From the NCBI RefSeq assembly GCF_024498195.1, contig NZ_CP101824.1, positions 2,914,001-2,978,000 of the forward strand: a DNA stretch of 64,000 nt, in the 5' to 3' direction. The position numbers and the translations under genes are program-made. Numbering within the stretch: position 1 is the first letter of the stretch; each line of letters opens with the position of its first letter. This document shows positions 2 to 46,192 of the stretch, one piece after another. This DNA is from Halovivax cerinus. Its GTDB lineage: Archaea; Halobacteriota; Halobacteria; Halobacteriales; Natrialbaceae. Under the pieces are notes generated by a model, which searched no databases, had not been told where the DNA came from, and saw only the letters and a list, made by a program, of their open reading frames with translations.

Positions 2-1600
2 AGCATGGTCCCCGACGCGCTCTCCGGCACGACCCTCGAGACGGATCTCGGGACCTTCCTCTCGACTGGGATCGGCGAGTCCATCGCGTTCTCGCTCCGG
101 GCCGACCGTCTGGGAGTCCTCTTCGCGCTGCTCGCTTCCTTCCTCTGGATCGCGACGAGTTTCTACTCCATCGGCTACATGCGCGGGCTCGACGAGCACG
201 ACCAGACGCGATTCTTCGCGGCGTTCGCCGCCAGCATCGCGTCGGCGATGGGGGTCGCGTTCGGGGCGAACCTCGTCACGCTGTTCGTCTTCTACGAGGT
301 CCTCTCGATTGCGACGTACCCGCTCGTGGCTCACGACGAGTCCGAGGAGGCGATCTGGGCCGGCCGCAAGTACCTGCTGTACACGCTGGGTGGCGGCGTC
401 GCCGTCCTCGCCGGGACGGTGCTGATCTACGCGATGACCGGGACGACGACGTTCGAGACTGGCGGCATCGCCGCACTCGGAAACGCGGATCCGCTGTACG
501 CTCGCGCCGCCTTCGGCCTGCTCGTCGGCGGGTTCGGTGTCAAGGCCGCGCTCATGCCGCTTCACTCCTGGTTGCCCGACGCGATGGTCGCGCCGACGCC
601 GGTCTCGGCGCTCCTGCACGCGGTCGCGGTCGTCAAGAGCGGCGTGTTCGGTATCGCCCGGGTCGTCCTCGACGTCTACGGTCCAGGTGCCGTCCAGGAC
701 CTGGGCGTTGGGATCCCCCTCGCCGCCGTCGCGGCGGTCACGCTACTCACCGCCAGCGTCATCGCGCTGAAGCAAGACAATCTGAAGCGACGGCTCGCGT
801 ACTCGACGGTGTCGCAGTTGTCCTACATCGTCCTGGGATTGGGACTCGCGAGTCCGGCCGCTCTCGTCGGTGCCTTGCTGCACATCCCCGCCCACGCGTT
901 CATGAAGATCACGCTGTTCTTCTGTGCCGGCGCCATCCACGTCGAGACCCACACCGACGACATCAGCGACATGGCCGGCATCGGTAAACGGATGCCACTG
1001 ACAATGTCGGCGTTCGCCGTCGCCGCGGCGGGAATGGCCGGTATGCCGCTACTGGCAGGTTTCGTGAGTAAGTGGTACCTGCTGGTCGGCGCCGTCGACC
1101 TGAACCTGGCGATCTTCGCGGTCGTCTTGCTTGTCTCTGGCGTCTTGAACGTCGCGTACTACTGGCCGATCGTCTACCAGGCGTTCTTCGAGGACGAGAC
1201 GAATCCGGATCCAAAACCGTTGCTAGAGTACCCGCCAGGCGGGCGCGCGGCCACTGATGCCGGCGCCGATGCGGACGTACCGCTCACGAACGGCGGCGTG
1301 CCGACCGGGGCCGCTGTGGCAGCACAGTCGACCGCCGATCCCGACACGGGTGACGGCCACTACGACGAGCACACCGACGAACGTAATGGTGACAGCCCGG
1401 ACGCGTCGGAGCACGAGTCACGTCCCACCGATTCGCGCTGGGAACGTCGGACCTGGCGCACCGAGAGTACGTGGTTCATGCTCGGACCGATCGTCCTCGC
1501 GGCGGTCGGTGCGGTGGTCCTCGGACTCGTTCCCGATCACGTGGTCTTTCTCGACCTGATCGAACGCGTCGTCGAAACCGCGACGGAGGTGTCCAACTGA
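2..1600 (+). CDS. Mrp-type Na+/H+ antiporter subunit D-like (5' truncated by window)
   Basis: Membrane subunit of a multisubunit cation/proton antiporter of the NuoL/M/N superfamily. About 13 hydrophobic segments are visible. The superfamily's conserved glutamate lies in FYEVLSIATYPL, its conserved lysine in KAALMPLHSWLP, and a second lysine in VVKSGVF; in relatives these carry protons. The frame is open to the left edge and the first visible Met (position 5) would skip the usual N-terminal helices, so the gene almost certainly starts outside the window. Roughly 95 Asp/Ser/Thr-rich residues (about 1190-1470) are inserted before the last helix. The stop overlaps the next start as ATGA, indicating one operon. 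Confidence 0.9.
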   Translation, partial: SMVPDALSGTTLETDLGTFLSTGIGESIAFSLRADRLGVLFALLASFLWIATSFYSIGYMRGLDEHDQTRFFAAFAASIASAMGVAFGANLVTLFVFYEVLSIATYPLVAHDESEEAIWAGRKYLLYTLGGGVAVLAGTVLIYAMTGTTTFETGGIAALGNADPLYARAAFGLLVGGFGVKAALMPLHSWLPDAMVAPTPVSALLHAVAVVKSGVFGIARVVLDVYGPGAVQDLGVGIPLAAVAAVTLLTASVIALKQDNLKRRLAYSTVSQLSYIVLGLGLASPAALVGALLHIPAHAFMKITLFFCAGAIHVETHTDDISDMAGIGKRMPLTMSAFAVAAAGMAGMPLLAGFVSKWYLLVGAVDLNLAIFAVVLLVSGVLNVAYYWPIVYQAFFEDETNPDPKPLLEYPPGGRAATDAGADADVPLTNGGVPTGAAVAAQSTADPDTGDGHYDEHTDERNGDSPDASEHESRPTDSRWERRTWRTESTWFMLGPIVLAAVGAVVLGLVPDHVVFLDLIERVVETATEVSN

Positions 1601-3399
1601 TGGCGATAGATCCATACGTCGTTCCGCCGGTACTGCTCGTCGCTGTCGCACTGCTCGCGTACGCCGTGCGCCCGCGATCGATCCATCCCGCCGGACTCGT
1701 CGTGACGGCGCTCGCCCTGGCGTACGCCGGATTCGTCCCGTCGGATTACGAACTGACGGGAACGCTCTTCGGCGGCGACGCAGTCGCCTTCGCCGGGTTC
1801 GACGTGGTGTTCGTCTCCGTCGACCCGTTCAGCCGGCTGATGGGCACGATATTCGCGTTCATCGGCTTCGTCGCGGTCCTGTACTCGTGGTCGACCGACG
1901 CGTCGCCCAGCCAGACTGCCTACGCCGTCTCGTACGTCGCGTCGAGTCTGCTGGCGGTCTACGCCGGCGACTGGCTCCTCCTGCTGTTCGCCTGGGAGCT
2001 CATGGCGATCACGTCGACCCTGCTCGTCTGGCACCACGGCGGCGCCGCGGTCAGGGCCGGCTTCCGGTACGCCGTCTGGCACGGCATCGGCGGTAGTCTG
2101 CTGATGGCCGCCGTCATCTGGCACTACCAGAGCCCCGGCGTCGGAACGTTCGTCATGACCGGGGACGGCATCGCGACCGGCATTCCGCAGGCGCTGGCCG
2201 CGCTCGGCATCGGCATCAACGTCGCGTTCGTCGGGTTCCACGCCTGGCTTCCCGACACGTACCCGCGCCCGCACGTCGCGGCGAGCGTCTTCCTCTGTGT
2301 CTACACCACCAAGACCGGCGTCTACGCGCTCTACCGGGCGTTCCCGGATGGTTCCCTGGCGCTCGCCTACATGGGCGGTGCGATGGCCGTCTTCGGCGTC
2401 ACCTTCGCGCTGCTGCAGAGTGACATGCGCCGTCTTCTCTCGTATCACATCCAGTCGCAGGTCGGCTACATGGTCGCCGGCGTCGGGATCGGCTCGACGC
2501 TCGCGGTCTCGGGTGCCTTCGCCCACGTCTTCAACCACATCCTCTACAAGGCGCTGCTGTTCATGACGGTCGGCGTCGTCATCTACCGCACCGGCGCCGA
2601 GAGCCTGAACAAGATCCACGGGATGCGCCGGGCGATGCCGATCACGTTCCTCGCCTTCACGATCGCCGCGCTCTCGATCGCCGGCTTCCCCGGCTTCAAC
2701 GGGTTCGTGAGCAAGGGGATGGTCCTCTACGAGGCCCACCACTATCCGGAGTACGAGGCGCTGTGGTACCTGCTCCTGCTCGGCGGCGTCGGCACGTTCA
2801 TGTCGTTCATCAAGCTCGGCTACTACGTGTTCTTCTACGGCGAGCAGACCCACGACGTCGACCGCGCGTCGGTCGGACAGTCGATCGCCATGCTGTCGGT
2901 CGCGGCGCTCTGTGTCCTCTACGGACTGTTCCCGGACGCGCTCTTCTCGATCCTGCCGGACGGAAACGCCGAAGCCATCGTCAAATTCGATGTGTTCTCT
3001 CTCGGTCACCTCCGGGAGGGCTTCGGTCTCGCCGCGGCCGGCGTCGTCGGCTTCGCGCTCCTCAAGCGGCCGCTCTCACGCGTCGGAATGATTCCCGACA
3101 TCGACTTCGCGTACAATCCGCTCTCGGTCGGGCTCGGTCGCGGCACGCTCCGTCTGATCAACGCCGTGATCGGCGTCATGGATCGCAACTCGACCCGGGC
3201 GGTACTCGGAACCCTCTCGCTCGGGGCGGTCGCGACCGGTGACGTCGAGACGCGTTCGACGGATCGATCCCTGGAGGGCGGCCCCGAACTCTTCGAACGG
3301 GGCCTCACCGCGGCCTTCACGAAACGGTCCGGCATCGGCGTCGCCGTCGCGATCGTCGTCGTCGCGACCACGGTACTACTCGTCCTGGGGTTCATCTGA
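1600..3399 (+). CDS. second Mrp D/NuoM-like antiporter subunit
   Basis: A 599-residue polytopic membrane protein paralogous to the preceding gene, probably part of the same Mrp-type antiporter complex. The start at 1600 is chosen because ATGA couples it to the upstream stop; an in-frame Met further upstream lies inside the previous gene. The conserved Glu is present in LLFAWELMAITST and the later Lys in TTKTGVY. The Lys that precedes the HxWLP motif in the first subunit aligns with Asn here (GINVAFVGFHAWLPD). The C-terminal 100 residues include a hydrophilic stretch and a final helix. No gene follows for about 600 bp, so this closes the operon. Confidence 0.88.
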   Translation: MAIDPYVVPPVLLVAVALLAYAVRPRSIHPAGLVVTALALAYAGFVPSDYELTGTLFGGDAVAFAGFDVVFVSVDPFSRLMGTIFAFIGFVAVLYSWSTDASPSQTAYAVSYVASSLLAVYAGDWLLLLFAWELMAITSTLLVWHHGGAAVRAGFRYAVWHGIGGSLLMAAVIWHYQSPGVGTFVMTGDGIATGIPQALAALGIGINVAFVGFHAWLPDTYPRPHVAASVFLCVYTTKTGVYALYRAFPDGSLALAYMGGAMAVFGVTFALLQSDMRRLLSYHIQSQVGYMVAGVGIGSTLAVSGAFAHVFNHILYKALLFMTVGVVIYRTGAESLNKIHGMRRAMPITFLAFTIAALSIAGFPGFNGFVSKGMVLYEAHHYPEYEALWYLLLLGGVGTFMSFIKLGYYVFFYGEQTHDVDRASVGQSIAMLSVAALCVLYGLFPDALFSILPDGNAEAIVKFDVFSLGHLREGFGLAAAGVVGFALLKRPLSRVGMIPDIDFAYNPLSVGLGRGTLRLINAVIGVMDRNSTRAVLGTLSLGAVATGDVETRSTDRSLEGGPELFERGLTAAFTKRSGIGVAVAIVVVATTVLLVLGFI

Positions 3400-4006
3400 G
3401 AACCGTCGACCGGCGCACTCGCCCCATCGGTGATCGGACGCACCAGCGTCTGTCAGCAAGCGTGTCACGTAACGCGGCCTGTCTATCAGCAAGCGTGTCA
3501 CGTAACGTGACCTGAGTGTCCGATTCGTGAGCGCAGTATCGTCTTCGAACGGACTCGAACGATCGGCGTACACCTGTTGTATGCCGTTCGTTGGTGATGA
3601 GTGTCCCGTCGGCGTGGTCGTAGGGCGTGTCGAACGCATCGCGATAGTCGGCCACCGGTCTCTGCGAGGCTGTCACCATCTGACGCCAGTTCACGTTCGG
3701 ACCTCGTCCGTACGCTCGTACCGACCGAATCCAGTGGGTTGGCGTGAGGGCCTCGTCGGTCGACCCAGGTGACGGGGACCGACGGTTCGACGGGGAGTGC
3801 GTGTACACGATTCGATGACCCTTTCGGCGACTGCAAATTCCGTCGATATCGTGATACAGAGGCGCTGTGAGGATACTTCGACCATAGCGGTCTGCATGCG
3901 ACGAATAACAATTGGCGCCAGGACGAGACCATCCTATGGATGACCGAGACCGGACGTCGAGTGGCCGATATCCCAGGATTGACCGGTGCGACCGGTGGGG
4001 TGAGAG
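3400..4006. other. intergenic region without a recognised gene
   Basis: 607 bp between the antiporter operon and the glycosyltransferase gene. Open frames here look like chance frames of GC-rich DNA (Arg/Ser-rich, no recognisable motif). It holds a pair of direct repeats at 3453-3507 and no clear promoter close to 4007. Confidence 0.6.
3453..3511. repeat. 33-bp-period direct repeat with palindrome
   Basis: A 22-bp sequence beginning tcagcaagcgtgtcacg occurs at 3453-3474 and identically at 3486-3507. The second copy runs into a perfect inverted repeat, GTCACG-TAA-CGTGAC (3497-3511). The pair lies about 55 bp after the antiporter operon stop. It could be a regulatory or terminator-like site or a decayed minisatellite. 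Confidence 0.7.
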
Positions 4007-5347
4007 ATGTATCGTGACCATCGCGTCGCCGTCGTGGTCCCGGCGTACAACGAAGCCGCGTTCGTCGGCGAGGTCCTGGAGACGATACCGGCTTACGTCG
4101 ATCGAGTCTACGCCGTCGACGATCGTTCGACCGACGGCACCTGGGCGGAACTCCGTCGACGGGCGGGTACCGAACCGATCGAAGAGCGCGCTGGGCGCCG
4201 CGATCGGGTGTCGTCGACAGAGGAGGTGCGATCGGAGCCAGCGACACCGGATCGCGCTCGCCCAGACGGCGGCGGACGGTCCATCGACGTCGGTGGCGCC
4301 GATTCGCCGGGGTCTGGACCGACCGGGAGTAACCCGTCGTCTCGGAGCGGATCGATCGATCTGGAGGGCATATTGAACGAGATGGATGACGAGCGCTCCC
4401 CGACGGCGACGGACGACGTGCTCGGATCGACGAGTGGTAACGGGGCTGGCGACAGGCCGACGAGTGGTGACGGGGACGGTGACGGGCCGACGGTGGTTCC
4501 GGTCCGGCACGCGGAGAACCGCGGCGTCGGCGCGGCGATCACGACGGGGTATCGACTGGCGCTCGCCGACGGGATCGACGTCACGGCCGTCATGGCGGGC
4601 GACGGACAGATGGATCCGGCACAGCTCTCGCGGTTACTGGATCCGATCGTCGAGGGGCGTGCGGCGTACGCGAAGGGGAATCGATTACGCGGACGGGAGC
4701 AGTTCGACTCGATGTCGTGGTTTCGATTCGGCGGGAACGTGCTCCTGTCGTTGCTGACGAAGGTCGCGAGCGGGTACTGGGGGATGCTCGACCCACAGAA
4801 CGGCTATACGGCGATCTCGCGTGAGGCCCTGGCGGCGATCGATCTCGATTCGCTCTACACGGAGTACGGGTTCGCGAACGACCTGCTCGTCGAACTGAAC
4901 ACGAACGGGTTCTCGATCGCGGACGTGGCGATGCCGGCCGTCTACGGCGACGAGCGGAGCCACATCGCGTATCGAACGTTCGTCCCCCGTCTCTCGTGGT
5001 TGCTCTGGCGCCGGTTTCTCCACCGCCTCGGCGTCACCTACATCCTCAGGGACTTCCACCCGCTCGTCGGCCTGTACGCGCTCGGAGTCGGCGGTCTCGC
5101 CGTCGGTCTCGGATCGATCGTCGGGTATATTCTCGGGTCCCGGTCAGCGACGAGCGACTCGCCTGCGACCGCCGACGGCGACCCGACGTCTCGACGGACC
5201 GCCGATCGCTCCGAGGCGGACTCGCTCCGACGGTCGGTTCGGTGGTGGGCGGCTGGGACGTGGGCGTTCGTCGCGGCGATCGCGCTCTGTCTCGCGATGG
5301 CCTTCGATCACGACTCGAACGACGGGTCGGTGGTGGTCGACGAATGA
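4007..5347 (+). CDS. GT2-family glycosyltransferase with internal disordered insert
   Basis: Probably transfers a sugar from a nucleotide sugar to a lipid carrier or glycan at the inner face of the membrane (dolichyl-phosphate-sugar-synthase-like GT-A fold). Visible motifs: VVVPAYNEAAFVGEVL (8-23), DDRSTDGT (38-45), ENRGVGAAITTGYRLA (170-185) and the acidic GDGQMDP (198-204). Residues 54-161 are a low-complexity Asp/Gly/Ser/Arg segment where relatives have a short loop. Two hydrophobic segments lie near the C-terminus (about 352-376 and 412-432). Its stop overlaps the DUF354 gene (ATGA), so both probably act in one polysaccharide or N-glycan pathway. The acceptor is unknown. Confidence 0.85.
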   Translation: MYRDHRVAVVVPAYNEAAFVGEVLETIPAYVDRVYAVDDRSTDGTWAELRRRAGTEPIEERAGRRDRVSSTEEVRSEPATPDRARPDGGGRSIDVGGADSPGSGPTGSNPSSRSGSIDLEGILNEMDDERSPTATDDVLGSTSGNGAGDRPTSGDGDGDGPTVVPVRHAENRGVGAAITTGYRLALADGIDVTAVMAGDGQMDPAQLSRLLDPIVEGRAAYAKGNRLRGREQFDSMSWFRFGGNVLLSLLTKVASGYWGMLDPQNGYTAISREALAAIDLDSLYTEYGFANDLLVELNTNGFSIADVAMPAVYGDERSHIAYRTFVPRLSWLLWRRFLHRLGVTYILRDFHPLVGLYALGVGGLAVGLGSIVGYILGSRSATSDSPATADGDPTSRRTADRSEADSLRRSVRWWAAGTWAFVAAIALCLAMAFDHDSNDGSVVVDE

Positions 5348-6417
5348 GGTGTATCGTTACGATACAACACCCTGCGCACGTCCACTTCTTCCGACACGCG
5401 ATCGGCGAACTCGAAGCAGACGGCCACGAGGTGTTCGTCTTCGCCCGCGAAAACGACCTCGCCGTCCCGTTACTGGAGGCGTACGACATTCCGCACGAGG
5501 TGCTCGCGGGGCCGCAGGACTCGCTCGTCTCCCTGGCGGCCGTCCAGGCGCGGTACGAGTGGCGGCTCCTTCGGCGAGCGAGGCGGCTCGATCCCGACGT
5601 CATGACGGCGATCGGCGGCGTCGCGGTCTCACACGTCGCGGCGCTGGTCGGGGCCCGGAGCGTGGTCTTCGTCGATAACGAAGGCGTCTGGTCGCATCGA
5701 CTCGTGGCACCGTTCGCCGACGTGATCGCGACACCGTCGACGTTCGAGGGCGACTTCGGTGACGGTCACGTCCGATACGATGGGTATCAGGAACTGGCGT
5801 ACCTGCACCCGGACCGATTCGAACCGTCACCCGAGACGCTCCGCGCGTACGGCGTGGATCCGGACGAGCGATACTTCTTCTGTCGGTTCCGGACCTGGGA
5901 CGCGCTCCACGACGTCGGACAGGGCGGACTCTCCCCGGCCGGCAAACGCGAACTGGTCGCTCGCTTTTCCGAACGCGGTTCCGTGTACATCTCGAGTTCC
6001 GATTCGCTCCCGGCGGATCTCGAACCGCATCGGGCGCCAGTCCCGCCGACTGCCGTCCACGACCTGCTCTACTTCGCCGACTGTTACGCCGGCGATTCGG
6101 GGACGATGGCGACGGAAGCCGCACTCCTCGGCACGCCGGCCGTTCGGATTCAGTCGTTCGCCGAGGACGCCGACACCGACATGAGTAACTTCGTCGTCAT
6201 GGAGCGCGAGTACGATCTCATGCGATCGACCGCCGACGAGGACGTCGCCATCGCCCTCGCAGACGAGTTGAGTGCGGACGAATCGGCGTCGGACCGGTGG
6301 CGACGCCGGCGGAATCGGGCGCTCACCGACCTGGCAGACGGAACGGACGTCGTCGTGGACCTGCTCACGAGGCCGCAACAGCGACGTCCGGCCCAGCCGG
6401 TGGTCGGACGCGAGTGA
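5344..6417 (+). CDS. DUF354 family protein (GT-B/epimerase-like)
   Basis: A 357-residue protein beginning MRCIVTIQHPAHVHFF, typical of the archaeal/bacterial DUF354 family, which is related to UDP-GlcNAc 2-epimerases and GT-B glycosyltransferases. The N-terminal Rossmann-like half carries the HPAHVHF signature. The C-terminal half has AGDSGTMATEAALLGTPAV, the nucleotide-sugar-binding loop type. The start at 5344 is favoured by the ATGA overlap with the upstream GT2 gene. The family is often found in surface polysaccharide clusters, consistent with its neighbour. The exact reaction is unproven. Confidence 0.82.
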   Translation: MRCIVTIQHPAHVHFFRHAIGELEADGHEVFVFARENDLAVPLLEAYDIPHEVLAGPQDSLVSLAAVQARYEWRLLRRARRLDPDVMTAIGGVAVSHVAALVGARSVVFVDNEGVWSHRLVAPFADVIATPSTFEGDFGDGHVRYDGYQELAYLHPDRFEPSPETLRAYGVDPDERYFFCRFRTWDALHDVGQGGLSPAGKRELVARFSERGSVYISSSDSLPADLEPHRAPVPPTAVHDLLYFADCYAGDSGTMATEAALLGTPAVRIQSFAEDADTDMSNFVVMEREYDLMRSTADEDVAIALADELSADESASDRWRRRRNRALTDLADGTDVVVDLLTRPQQRRPAQPVVGRE

Positions 6418-34321: not shown

Positions 34322-34619
34322 AAGCCAGGGGTGGATTGTGAACCACCTGAATTTCGGTCGCTTTGCTCCCTCGTTCCGTACTTCACATCCCACGTCCGCA
34401 CTTCGCGCCTCCCTTCGTTCGACGCAGACTGCCTCGCGGTTCGCTCCGCTCATTGCTCGGGACACCGTGATTCTCACTCCGTTCGAATCACGCAAGCCAG
34501 GGGTGGATTGTGAACCACGGTCGATCGCTTCCGCGCTCACTCCGTTCGCGAGACTGCGCTCTCCCTGATTCAAATCCCACAGACGGATCGTGCCGCTCGC
34601 GAATTGCTCGCGGCACCGA
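34322..34619 (-). repeat. repeat-rich 3' flank of tRNA-Thr with partial tRNA-tail copies
   Basis: Two identical 23-bp copies of a sequence related to the tRNA-Thr 3' end (T arm plus acceptor strand) lie at 34324-34346 and 34495-34517. Both carry the same altered T-stem (ggattgtgaacc instead of ggatttgaaccc), so one copy arose from the other. Each is paired with an inverted T-arm-like sequence (ttcacatcccac near 34382, ttcaaatcccac near 34569). Hairpins with purine-rich loops lie between them, for example the perfect 8-bp stem at 34466-34492. No complete second tRNA is present. Confidence 0.8.
34590..34616 (-). other. hairpin 3 nt downstream of tRNA-Thr
   Basis: 27 nt with a 7-bp perfect stem (GTGCCGC/GCGGCAC) and a 13-nt loop, GAGCAATTCGCGA, on the tRNA strand. 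It ends 3 nt from the discriminator base. The counterpart after tRNA-Ser has the same geometry and a near-identical loop. Confidence 0.8.
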
Positions 34620-34693
34620 AGCCAGGGGTGGGATTTGAACCCACGAAGTCTCGATTACAAGTCGAGTGCATGAACCGCCCATGCTCCCCTGGC
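34620..34693 (-). tRNA. tRNA-Thr (anticodon UGU)
   Basis: 74 nt. Acceptor GCCAGGG/CCCTGGC, anticodon stem CTCGA/TCGAG with loop CTTGTAA (anticodon TGT), T arm GTGGG-TTCAAAT-CCCAC, discriminator T as in archaeal tRNA-Thr. The CCA end is not encoded. The D arm is unusual: positions 8 and 14 are both G, and the stem GCATG/CATGC can form five pairs. No intron. Confidence 0.88.
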
Positions 34694-45781: not shown

Positions 45782-46080
45782 GCAGACCGACGGACACGCG
45801 ATTCAGTTGGGTGGATCGCGTCGCTCTCCCTCATCGGTGGTCTCGAAGTGACTACGAGTCGTCTGTGGGAGTGGGCTTCGACCCACGTGAAGACGGTCCT
45901 GCGAACCTCCCTCCGTTCGGCTGCGCGGACTGAGACTGGTTTCCTTCAAATCCAACGTGTCCGCTTCGCTCCTCACGTCCGTTCGTCGCAGAAGCGGTGG
46001 GATGGGATTTGAACTACCCCCGAGAACCTGTTCGCTACGCTCACAGAACCTCGGTATAATTCAAATCCCACCATACCTCG
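45782..46080 (-). repeat. repeat-rich 3' flank of tRNA-Ser with tRNA-tail-like fragments
   Basis: Contains a T-arm-like fragment at about 45992-46011 (ggtgggatgggatttgaac) facing an inverted match near 46052-46067 (attcaaatcccacc), giving a long-armed inverted repeat. Between them is a hairpin with ACAG/CTGT arms and loop GAGCGTAGCGA on the minus strand. Further left are a second hairpin (ACGTG/CACGT, about 45956-45982), a lone ttcaaatcc at 45945 and a degenerate gtgggagtgggcttcgaccc at about 45866. No coding sequence is seen in the 45782-46110 spacer. Confidence 0.75.
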
Positions 46081-46107
46081 CTGTCGCTCACGGATTGTTC
46101 GCGACAG
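46081..46107 (-). other. hairpin 3 nt downstream of tRNA-Ser
   Basis: 27 nt: 7-bp perfect stem (CTGTCGC/GCGACAG), 13-nt loop GAACAATCCGTGA on the tRNA strand. Its distance to the discriminator base is 3 nt, identical to the tRNA-Thr case, and the stem shows two compensatory changes relative to it. Confidence 0.8.
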
Positions 46108-46110
46108 CAA

Positions 46111-46192
46111 CGGTGGGGATGGGATTTGAACCCATGAGGCTGACGCCACCTGCTTTCAAGGCAGGCGCAATAGGCCGCTCTGCCACCCCACC
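46111..46192 (-). tRNA. tRNA-Ser (anticodon UGA)
   Basis: 82 nt class II tRNA. Acceptor GGTGGGG/CCCCACC, T8, A14, anticodon stem CCTGC/GCAGG with loop CTTGAAA (anticodon TGA), long variable arm, T loop TTCAAAT, discriminator G typical of tRNA-Ser. CCA is not encoded. No intron. Confidence 0.93.

Follow-up and report, generated by a model that had tools for sequence, protein, structure and literature searches.

Tandem non-coding hairpin repeats with fixed edges behind haloarchaeal tRNA genes

Repeat arrays at the tRNA-Thr and tRNA-Ser loci

The window, a stretch of 64,000 nt (G000:C1:2914001-2978000) from a 3.90-Mb single-contig haloarchaeal genome, carries genes for tRNA-Thr(UGU) and tRNA-Ser(UGA). 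Both are followed by a hairpin on the minus strand. The order is tRNA-Thr, TCG and GTGCCGC-GAGCAATTCGCGA-GCGGCAC at the first locus and tRNA-Ser, TTG and CTGTCGC-GAACAATCCGTGA-GCGACAG at the second. The first-pass annotation had correctly described both hairpins as 27 nt long and starting 3 nt past the discriminator base, with two compensated stem differences and three loop differences, all transitions, between them. The 13-nt loop has the length given there but is not wholly unpaired, as part of it is stem: it reads C.GA.RC-AAYYC-GY.GA.G, i.e. tandem sheared-type G.A pairs and a covarying 2-bp stem. This inner stem is GC/GC in one window hairpin and AC/GT in the other, and two of the three loop transitions are mutually compensatory. 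Within the window, the hairpin motif is only weakly above chance (3 matches versus 1.04 expected), so that its significance rests on copies beyond the window.

The two hairpins are the first A elements of two arrays with the architecture X-A-X'-B-X-A-X'-B-X, in which the unit X-A-X'-B is tandemly repeated (Table 1). X is a copy of the local tRNA's own T54-N73, and X' is an inverted copy comprising T54-C62 only. A and B are hairpins, and no unit encodes a protein. Both arrays contain two units, the second of which is partly decayed. The B1 type of the Ser locus is also present behind tRNA-Met, tRNA-Val and tRNA-Glu. In an Rfam 15 scan of the window above gathering score, the two tRNAs were matched and none of the array units.

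Table 1. Components of the two tRNA-linked arrays, in window coordinates
Feature	Position	Strand	Remarks
tRNA-Thr(UGU)	34620..34693	-	last 20 nt (34620-34639, T54-N73) = X, repeated downstream
Hairpin A1, Thr locus	34590..34616	-	first hairpin of the first-pass annotation; 3 nt past discriminator base
X', Thr locus	34569..34578	-	inverted copy of T-loop core (GGGATTTGAA)
Hairpin B1, Thr locus	34515..34568	-	tip CGAACGGAGTGAG, GGA triloop
Partial tRNA-Thr copy X1	34495..34514	-	TTCACAATCCACCCCTGGCT
Second A region, Thr locus	34394..34492	-	hairpin CGTGATTCGAACGGAGTGAGAATCACG (34466-34492) and more hairpin sequence
X' of second Thr unit	34382..34393	-	degenerate; GTGGGATGTGAA
Hairpin B2, Thr locus	34343..34381	-	
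Partial tRNA-Thr copy X2	34323..34342	-	
tRNA-Ser(UGA)	46111..46192	-	X = 46111-46130
Hairpin A1, Ser locus	46081..46107	-	second hairpin of the first-pass annotation
X', Ser locus	46060..46070	-	TGGGATTTGAA
Hairpin B1, Ser locus	46014..46059	-	ACCGAGGTTCTGTGAGCGTAGCGAACAGGTTCTCGG type, GTA triloop
Partial tRNA-Ser copy X1	45994..46013	-	TTCAAATCCCATCCCACCGC
Hairpin A2, Ser locus	45964..45991	-	GCGACGAACGGACGTGAGGAGC type
X' of second Ser unit	45945..45955	-	TTGGATTTGAA
Hairpin B2, Ser locus	45883..45944	-	CAGTCTCAGTCCGCGCAG...GGACCGTCT type
Decayed X2, Ser locus	45863..45882	-	GTCGAAGCCCACTCCCACAG; below 5-mismatch limit of tRNA-end copy search

For the genome that contains the window, genome-wide counts were obtained from pattern searches and retrieved loci. 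Hairpins of the window kind are located behind most of its 41 tRNA genes. Downstream of 25 of the 41, one to five extra copies of the tRNA's own last 22 nt were found at a spacing of 99-178 nt; upstream of the 41 genes, no copies of the tRNA 3' end were detected.

Edges, fold and variation of the repeats

The anatomy of the repeats was determined at 129 tRNA loci from five genomes of the same genus, 71 of which carry a total of 119 X copies. The edges of X, G53|T54 and N73, are identical over all 119 copies and for every isoacceptor. Up to position 51, identity to the tRNA is at the chance level (about 0.3). It rises to 0.66 at position 52 and 0.92 at G53, amounts to 0.92-0.99 over T54-C72 (T loop, T stem and acceptor strand) and is still 0.90 at the discriminator N73, with 0.55 beyond. 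X' matches the local tRNA, too: at T-loop base 57, tRNA and X' combine as A-T in 77 and G-C in 28 cases, with 7 mismatches, and even the rare T loops TTCAATT, TTCAACT and TTCGATC are matched exactly. Either X'-B-X must fold, or its arms correct each other.

The hairpin type noted first occurs in 47 copies (46 distinct) downstream of tRNA genes in these five genomes, and 32 of the 47 begin 1-6 nt past the tRNA end. This disposes of a coincidence of two matches, which the first-pass annotation had considered. The exact Thr-hairpin pattern, when searched in relatives, matched in the own genome only; it is too specific because the stem is free to vary. Among 42 aligned copies, 96.3% of the pair cells hold standard pairs, and pairing falls to 14-20% when partners are slid by one column. 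Two-sided changes affect 84 cells versus 20.6 in shuffles (0/500), a shuffle count that does not equal a probability, as the aligned hairpins are related by descent.

A and B hairpins have a common tip, C.GA.RC-loop-GY.GA.G, composed of facing GA steps, two base pairs and a loop. Tip hairpins of the five genomes lie nearly all on the tRNA-sense strand (140, versus 6 on the opposite one). The inner tip pair is GC..GC in 78, AC..GT in 60 and GC..GT in 2 cases, and AC..GC was not found. In the outer five stem pairs, G.T (21) far exceeds A.C (2; p about 7e-5), which indicates that folding of the sense strand matters. The proposal of selection on structure is backed by the compensation, the one-strand bias and the X'-X covariation.

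The short tip loops provide a hint as to the nucleic acid that folds. GNA triloops account for 51 of 61 three-base loops. The four-base loops comprise 15 GNNA with a pyrimidine as third base, 8 GNAB, 2 GNRA and 4 others. The d(GCGAAGC) mini-hairpins are stable, and RNA tetraloops favour GNRA. The short loops found here fit d(cGNAg), d(cGNNAg) and d(cGNABg), the latter two of which are named as stable DNA motifs in the title of Nakano et al. (2002), as given in PMC2984261; extraordinarily stable mini-hairpins in general are treated in PMC10527192. The tip loops follow the DNA and not the RNA stable-loop code, and loop identity points to single-stranded DNA. The A hairpins of the type noted first have 5-6-nt AA...C loops, which are uninformative in this respect. 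In a single-stranded DNA fold of the Ser array, the sense strand is predicted to form hairpin A and a long X'-B-X hairpin (z = -6.3), and the opposite strand is less stable. Hairpin A and the X'-B-X hairpin are also predicted for the Thr array, where the stretch as a whole does not exceed shuffles significantly in stability (z = -1.7).

At orthologous tRNA loci within the genus, the number of copies ranges from 0 to 5 and mostly differs between species. As loci from three of the other genomes (G001, G002, G004) were picked mainly where the own genome has arrays, unit frequencies per genome outside the latter are biased. Clean empty sites were found at Ala-CGC, Leu-CAA, Arg-UCG and Arg-UCU: what lies past the last X in one species aligns directly to what lies downstream of the bare tRNA in another and beats all 300 shuffles. 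They are compatible with gain as well as with loss, because a precise recombinational loss between two X copies looks identical. In 68 of 109 cases, the nearest B neighbour is located at another tRNA; one B pair, at Glu-CUC in one species and at Gly-GCC in another, is identical over 41 nt. Orthologous loci provide the nearest neighbour in 41 of 109 cases and make up 3.4% of the pairs. This over-representation means that much array inheritance is vertical.

An independent case that places the joint at the same G53|T54 bond is a split tRNA-Cys gene on the Haloarcula halophila plasmid NZ_CP119561.1. It is interrupted exactly at this bond by 69 nt consisting of X' and a standard B. ARAGORN recognised a complete tRNA-Cys once the insert was removed, and none with the insert in place. 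On the same plasmid, 23 predicted tRNA genes (858-5673) adjoin a gene for a TROVE-domain (Ro60-like) protein, and another tRNA with an insert or intron is located at about 2059-2185.

The arrays are not confined to one genus. A looser array pattern hit 374 of 392 Halobacteriales genomes, and the reversed-pattern control yielded 0 in every genome. Outside the order, 14 of 204 genomes matched, and the listed cases are mostly tRNA genes that by chance follow GATTTGA. A stricter pattern returned 57 stretches from 84,980 species scanned, 55 of them haloarchaeal, in genera including Halorientalis, Haloarcula, Halorubrum, Natrialba, Halococcus, Natronomonas and Halobacterium. At 51 of 58 such sites the own tRNA is located upstream and the 3' edge is the same; the stricter pattern itself fixes two bases before T54, and the 5' edge at these sites is no proof. 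It appears that a whole archaeal order carries non-coding repeats behind its tRNA genes.

The tip is not unique to tRNA arrays because tip hairpins occur far from tRNAs as well. In the own genome, the strict tip motif was found 93 times versus 16 times for the reversed control. About 30 of the 93 are downstream of tRNAs, others directly after stop codons or inside genes. The tip is a general haloarchaeal feature, and the tRNA-specific part is the X repeat with its fixed edges.

Several hairpins of this kind lie in or next to coding sequences of the own genome. Pairs of the same tip class occupy the same position within several paralogous HELAHV.QQ-type genes, which we take to be DUF4157-like (G000:C1:141298, 410156, 1086312, 1196484, 2852567, 3000626 and 3002454). 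Where checked, they are in frame, between QQ.GG and ..AISMMP. A 63-nt hairpin unit (GEGRAKRVPRTGERGAKR...) is present three times in frame in a PLP-enzyme/threonine synthase-like gene (G000:C1:1072397-1072535). REP-like two-hairpin units, some in tandem, start at or just after a TAG that is the apparent stop codon of a gene; one example comprises five copies of 77 nt (1582589-1582909).

Origin of the arrays

In the favoured reading, the arrays would consist of tiny integrative cassettes that encode nothing and have the tRNA T loop as their target. Judged from the sequences, we give this reading an even chance. Entry would be site-specific: a cassette would recombine at G53|T54, where the 7-nt T loop begins on its 5' side, and a tyrosine recombinase would use this loop as crossover region. 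As the cassette would bring its own copy of T54-N73, the tRNA would stay intact, and the old 3' end would be displaced downstream to become the next X. The 7-nt T loop is established as crossover region for one class of tRNA-targeting tyrosine recombinases. The X'-B-X palindrome would fold as a hairpin on the tRNA-sense strand, so that a single DNA strand would again provide the T-loop core in double-stranded form, in the manner of integron attC sites. Such an integron-like exchange would explain X', because a normal double-stranded site needs no inverted core. Archaeal att sites have been reviewed, and many archaeal integrases use a core that extends from the T loop to the 3' end (PMC8371274).

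A tentative and rather doubtful extension is an integron-like archaeal system that would employ tRNA genes as sites and exchange folded single-stranded DNA cassettes at G53|T54, possibly by a housekeeping XerA-like recombinase; it would have built the arrays behind the majority of tRNAs in almost all haloarchaea, with the cassettes supplying the tRNA 3' end that keeps the gene whole. One candidate enzyme among several is a XerA-like tyrosine recombinase of 337 aa (G000:C1:3164908-3165918), which shares 47-84% identity across haloarchaeal families. All well-assembled Halobacteriales genomes tested contain it, whether or not they match the strict pattern, and this makes its co-occurrence uninformative. 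The integron-integrase model gave it 19.6 bits at a cut-off of 265, in a scan that covered this recombinase only. A point against the cassettes is that ordinary recombination from one X repeat to another could alter the arrays as well. Furthermore, the local match of X', rare T loops included, is not automatic for a cassette that moves between tRNAs, so that arm correction or selection would be needed.

This local match is at home in the main rival, which is possible though not probable: no dedicated enzyme would act today, and old palindromic repeats would grow, shrink and be reshuffled through RecA-type recombination, through slippage and through template switches at hairpins, with quasi-palindrome correction keeping X' matched to X. 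Template switching is worth weighing because away from tRNAs, too, X' has the look of a local copy. Several observations are in favour of this rival: units at Arg-CCU are identical and tandem, Gly-UCC shows a period-2 duplication, the copy number varies at most loci, X' is nearly always local, and similar alternating hairpin arrays occur within coding genes and behind stop codons. However, breakpoints fixed at G53|T54 and N73 in all isoacceptors and families are not expected from random template switches, nor is a tRNA split at the same G53|T54 bond. The first insertion at unit-free tRNAs is not explained either, and the strand bias as well as the bias of G.T over A.C need selection or a one-strand process. 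As an origin, random template switching is therefore disfavoured by the sharp breakpoints.

An RNA function is unlikely. Here, the downstream hairpins would act as 3' trailers in the termination or processing of pre-tRNAs, be it as terminator, by positioning tRNase Z or as small RNA. The location of the first hairpin 1-6 nt past the tRNA, on the transcribed strand, and the tolerance of G.T over A.C agree with this. Yet many tRNAs lack a hairpin and orthologues gain or lose it, and GNRA represents 2 of 29 tetraloops compared to 15 GNYA, with GNA in 51 triloops. In addition, some A hairpins pair an early T run itself (TTTTTC...GAAAAA), and a transcript that ends in this run would presumably miss the 3' arm. 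A tRNA 3'-processing signal or terminator, two of the three roles suggested in the first-pass annotation, was rejected as a general role: about one third of this genome's tRNAs have no adjoining structure, orthologous tRNAs lost or never had it, and up to five unit repeats follow a single tRNA. The processing signal thus fails under the refuting condition set in that annotation, absence after other tRNAs and from orthologous loci, and a mere coincidence fails far more strongly. From that interpretation, selection on structure is supported. Among its three guesses, a mobile hairpin that targets tRNA ends fits best because presence and copy number vary among congeners, empty sites are clean and the breakpoints in the tRNA are fixed.

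Movement by a Y1 transposase (IS200/IS605, RAYT), with the units as REP/BIME-like palindromes or PATEs, is very unlikely. The alternation of two hairpin kinds is reminiscent of BIMEs (PMC2817692), and haloarchaea do carry PATEs and SMRs of about 110 bp (PMC3119063). Against this, the distribution of Y1 genes does not follow that of the units: Y1 is missing from G004, where units are present, and ten Y1 genes occur in the unit-poor G070. We know of no 20-nt target duplication in Y1 transposition. PATEs and SMRs cause no target duplication (PMC3119063).

Two further explanations start from larger integrated elements, and both meet evidence from the own genome. There, tRNA-Ser-GGA is followed by an integrase-bearing region (G000:C1:1714343-1730150), whose far end is a tRNA fragment and then an array. 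Likewise, tRNA-Phe is followed by a probable 51-kb element (G000:C1:1782970-1834178), a far tRNA fragment and an array. Both regions are probable integrated elements. It is highly improbable that the arrays are scars of ordinary proviruses or plasmids once integrated into tRNA 3' ends and later deleted. Although large elements do integrate here, as these two regions illustrate, a conserved internal unit architecture common to unrelated tRNAs and families, conserved B modules, and units that lack gene remnants and are in several cases tandem and identical speak against it. Hardly credible is a role of the X copies as decoy att sites that divert incoming elements from the real tRNA. Each X does contain the core from T loop to 3' end used by many archaeal integrases (PMC8371274), but the two larger elements sit between tRNA and array. 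The real tRNA was used, which speaks against effective decoys.

Viruses and plasmids were also considered as vehicles and found little support. The viral pattern scans revealed no unit carrier among the matches listed, which are unrelated or chance palindromes. The phage scan gave no match, and the plasmid scan 7 weak ones. GC-rich, probably bacterial contigs in IMG/VR contain near-perfect palindromes, GATTTGAACC(A/G)TG...CA(T/C)GGTTCAAATC, in which the T-arm core is inverted around a hairpin; they are apparently unrelated to the haloarchaeal units despite a curious resemblance.

Relation to known systems and significance

Cassettes of the proposed kind would share properties with several known systems. 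Like integron attC sites and CALINs, the arrays contain tandem palindromic sites whose outer arms pair on one strand and combine variable sequence with a conserved fold. The structure is strand-specific (here X'-X covariation and 140:6), and exchange is proposed to occur next to G|TT at the core edge. In contrast to attC, the R box GTTRRRY/RYYYAAC is absent; X has GTTCRAATCC and X' GGATTYGAA, and the structured strand carries G|TTC. Moreover, there are no coding cassettes, and each array is tied to a single tRNA. Archaeal integrons have been reported, with haloarchaea not mentioned in the main text (PMC9668308).

With elements that use tyrosine recombinases and target tRNAs, the arrays have in common a direct repeat of the tRNA 3' end (T54-N73), the T-loop breakpoint G53|T54 and an intact tRNA. 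However, such elements comprise kilobases and their own integrase, whereas the haloarchaeal units are gene-free, about 100-180 nt long and tandem, with an inverted core. Bacterial RAYT-associated REPs/BIMEs also consist of two kinds of short palindrome in alternating, mostly intergenic arrays. They differ in that the target repeat X is here the local tRNA end, with no correlation to Y1 and no apparent GTAG-type requirement at tRNAs. The PATEs and SMRs of Haloquadratum are short non-coding haloarchaeal elements as well, some of about 110 bp, with palindromes. They make no target duplication, and SMRs target other mobile elements and not tRNAs (PMC3119063), whereas X is duplicated at every tRNA-array unit and the units lie behind tRNAs. 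Judged by membership tests, the arrays fall outside integrons, REPs, PATEs and ordinary integrative elements, although they may work like the first and the last of these four.

In the open-paper literature on haloarchaeal tRNA-linked repeats, no description of these arrays was found; the nearest entries are prophage-type partial tRNAs, PATEs, SMRs, REPs and archaeal integrons. Thus, non-coding tRNA-linked repeats with fixed breakpoints and strong structural selection, distributed order-wide, are apparently undescribed in open papers. If they represent a mutational process, nature would have preserved in them an exceptionally clear trace of how hairpins drive DNA rearrangement. If they represent a recombination system, folded single-strand recombination, known from integrons, would be extended to tRNA targets. 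This would explain the strong variation of haloarchaeal tRNA ends and could yield a T-loop-targeted genetic tool.
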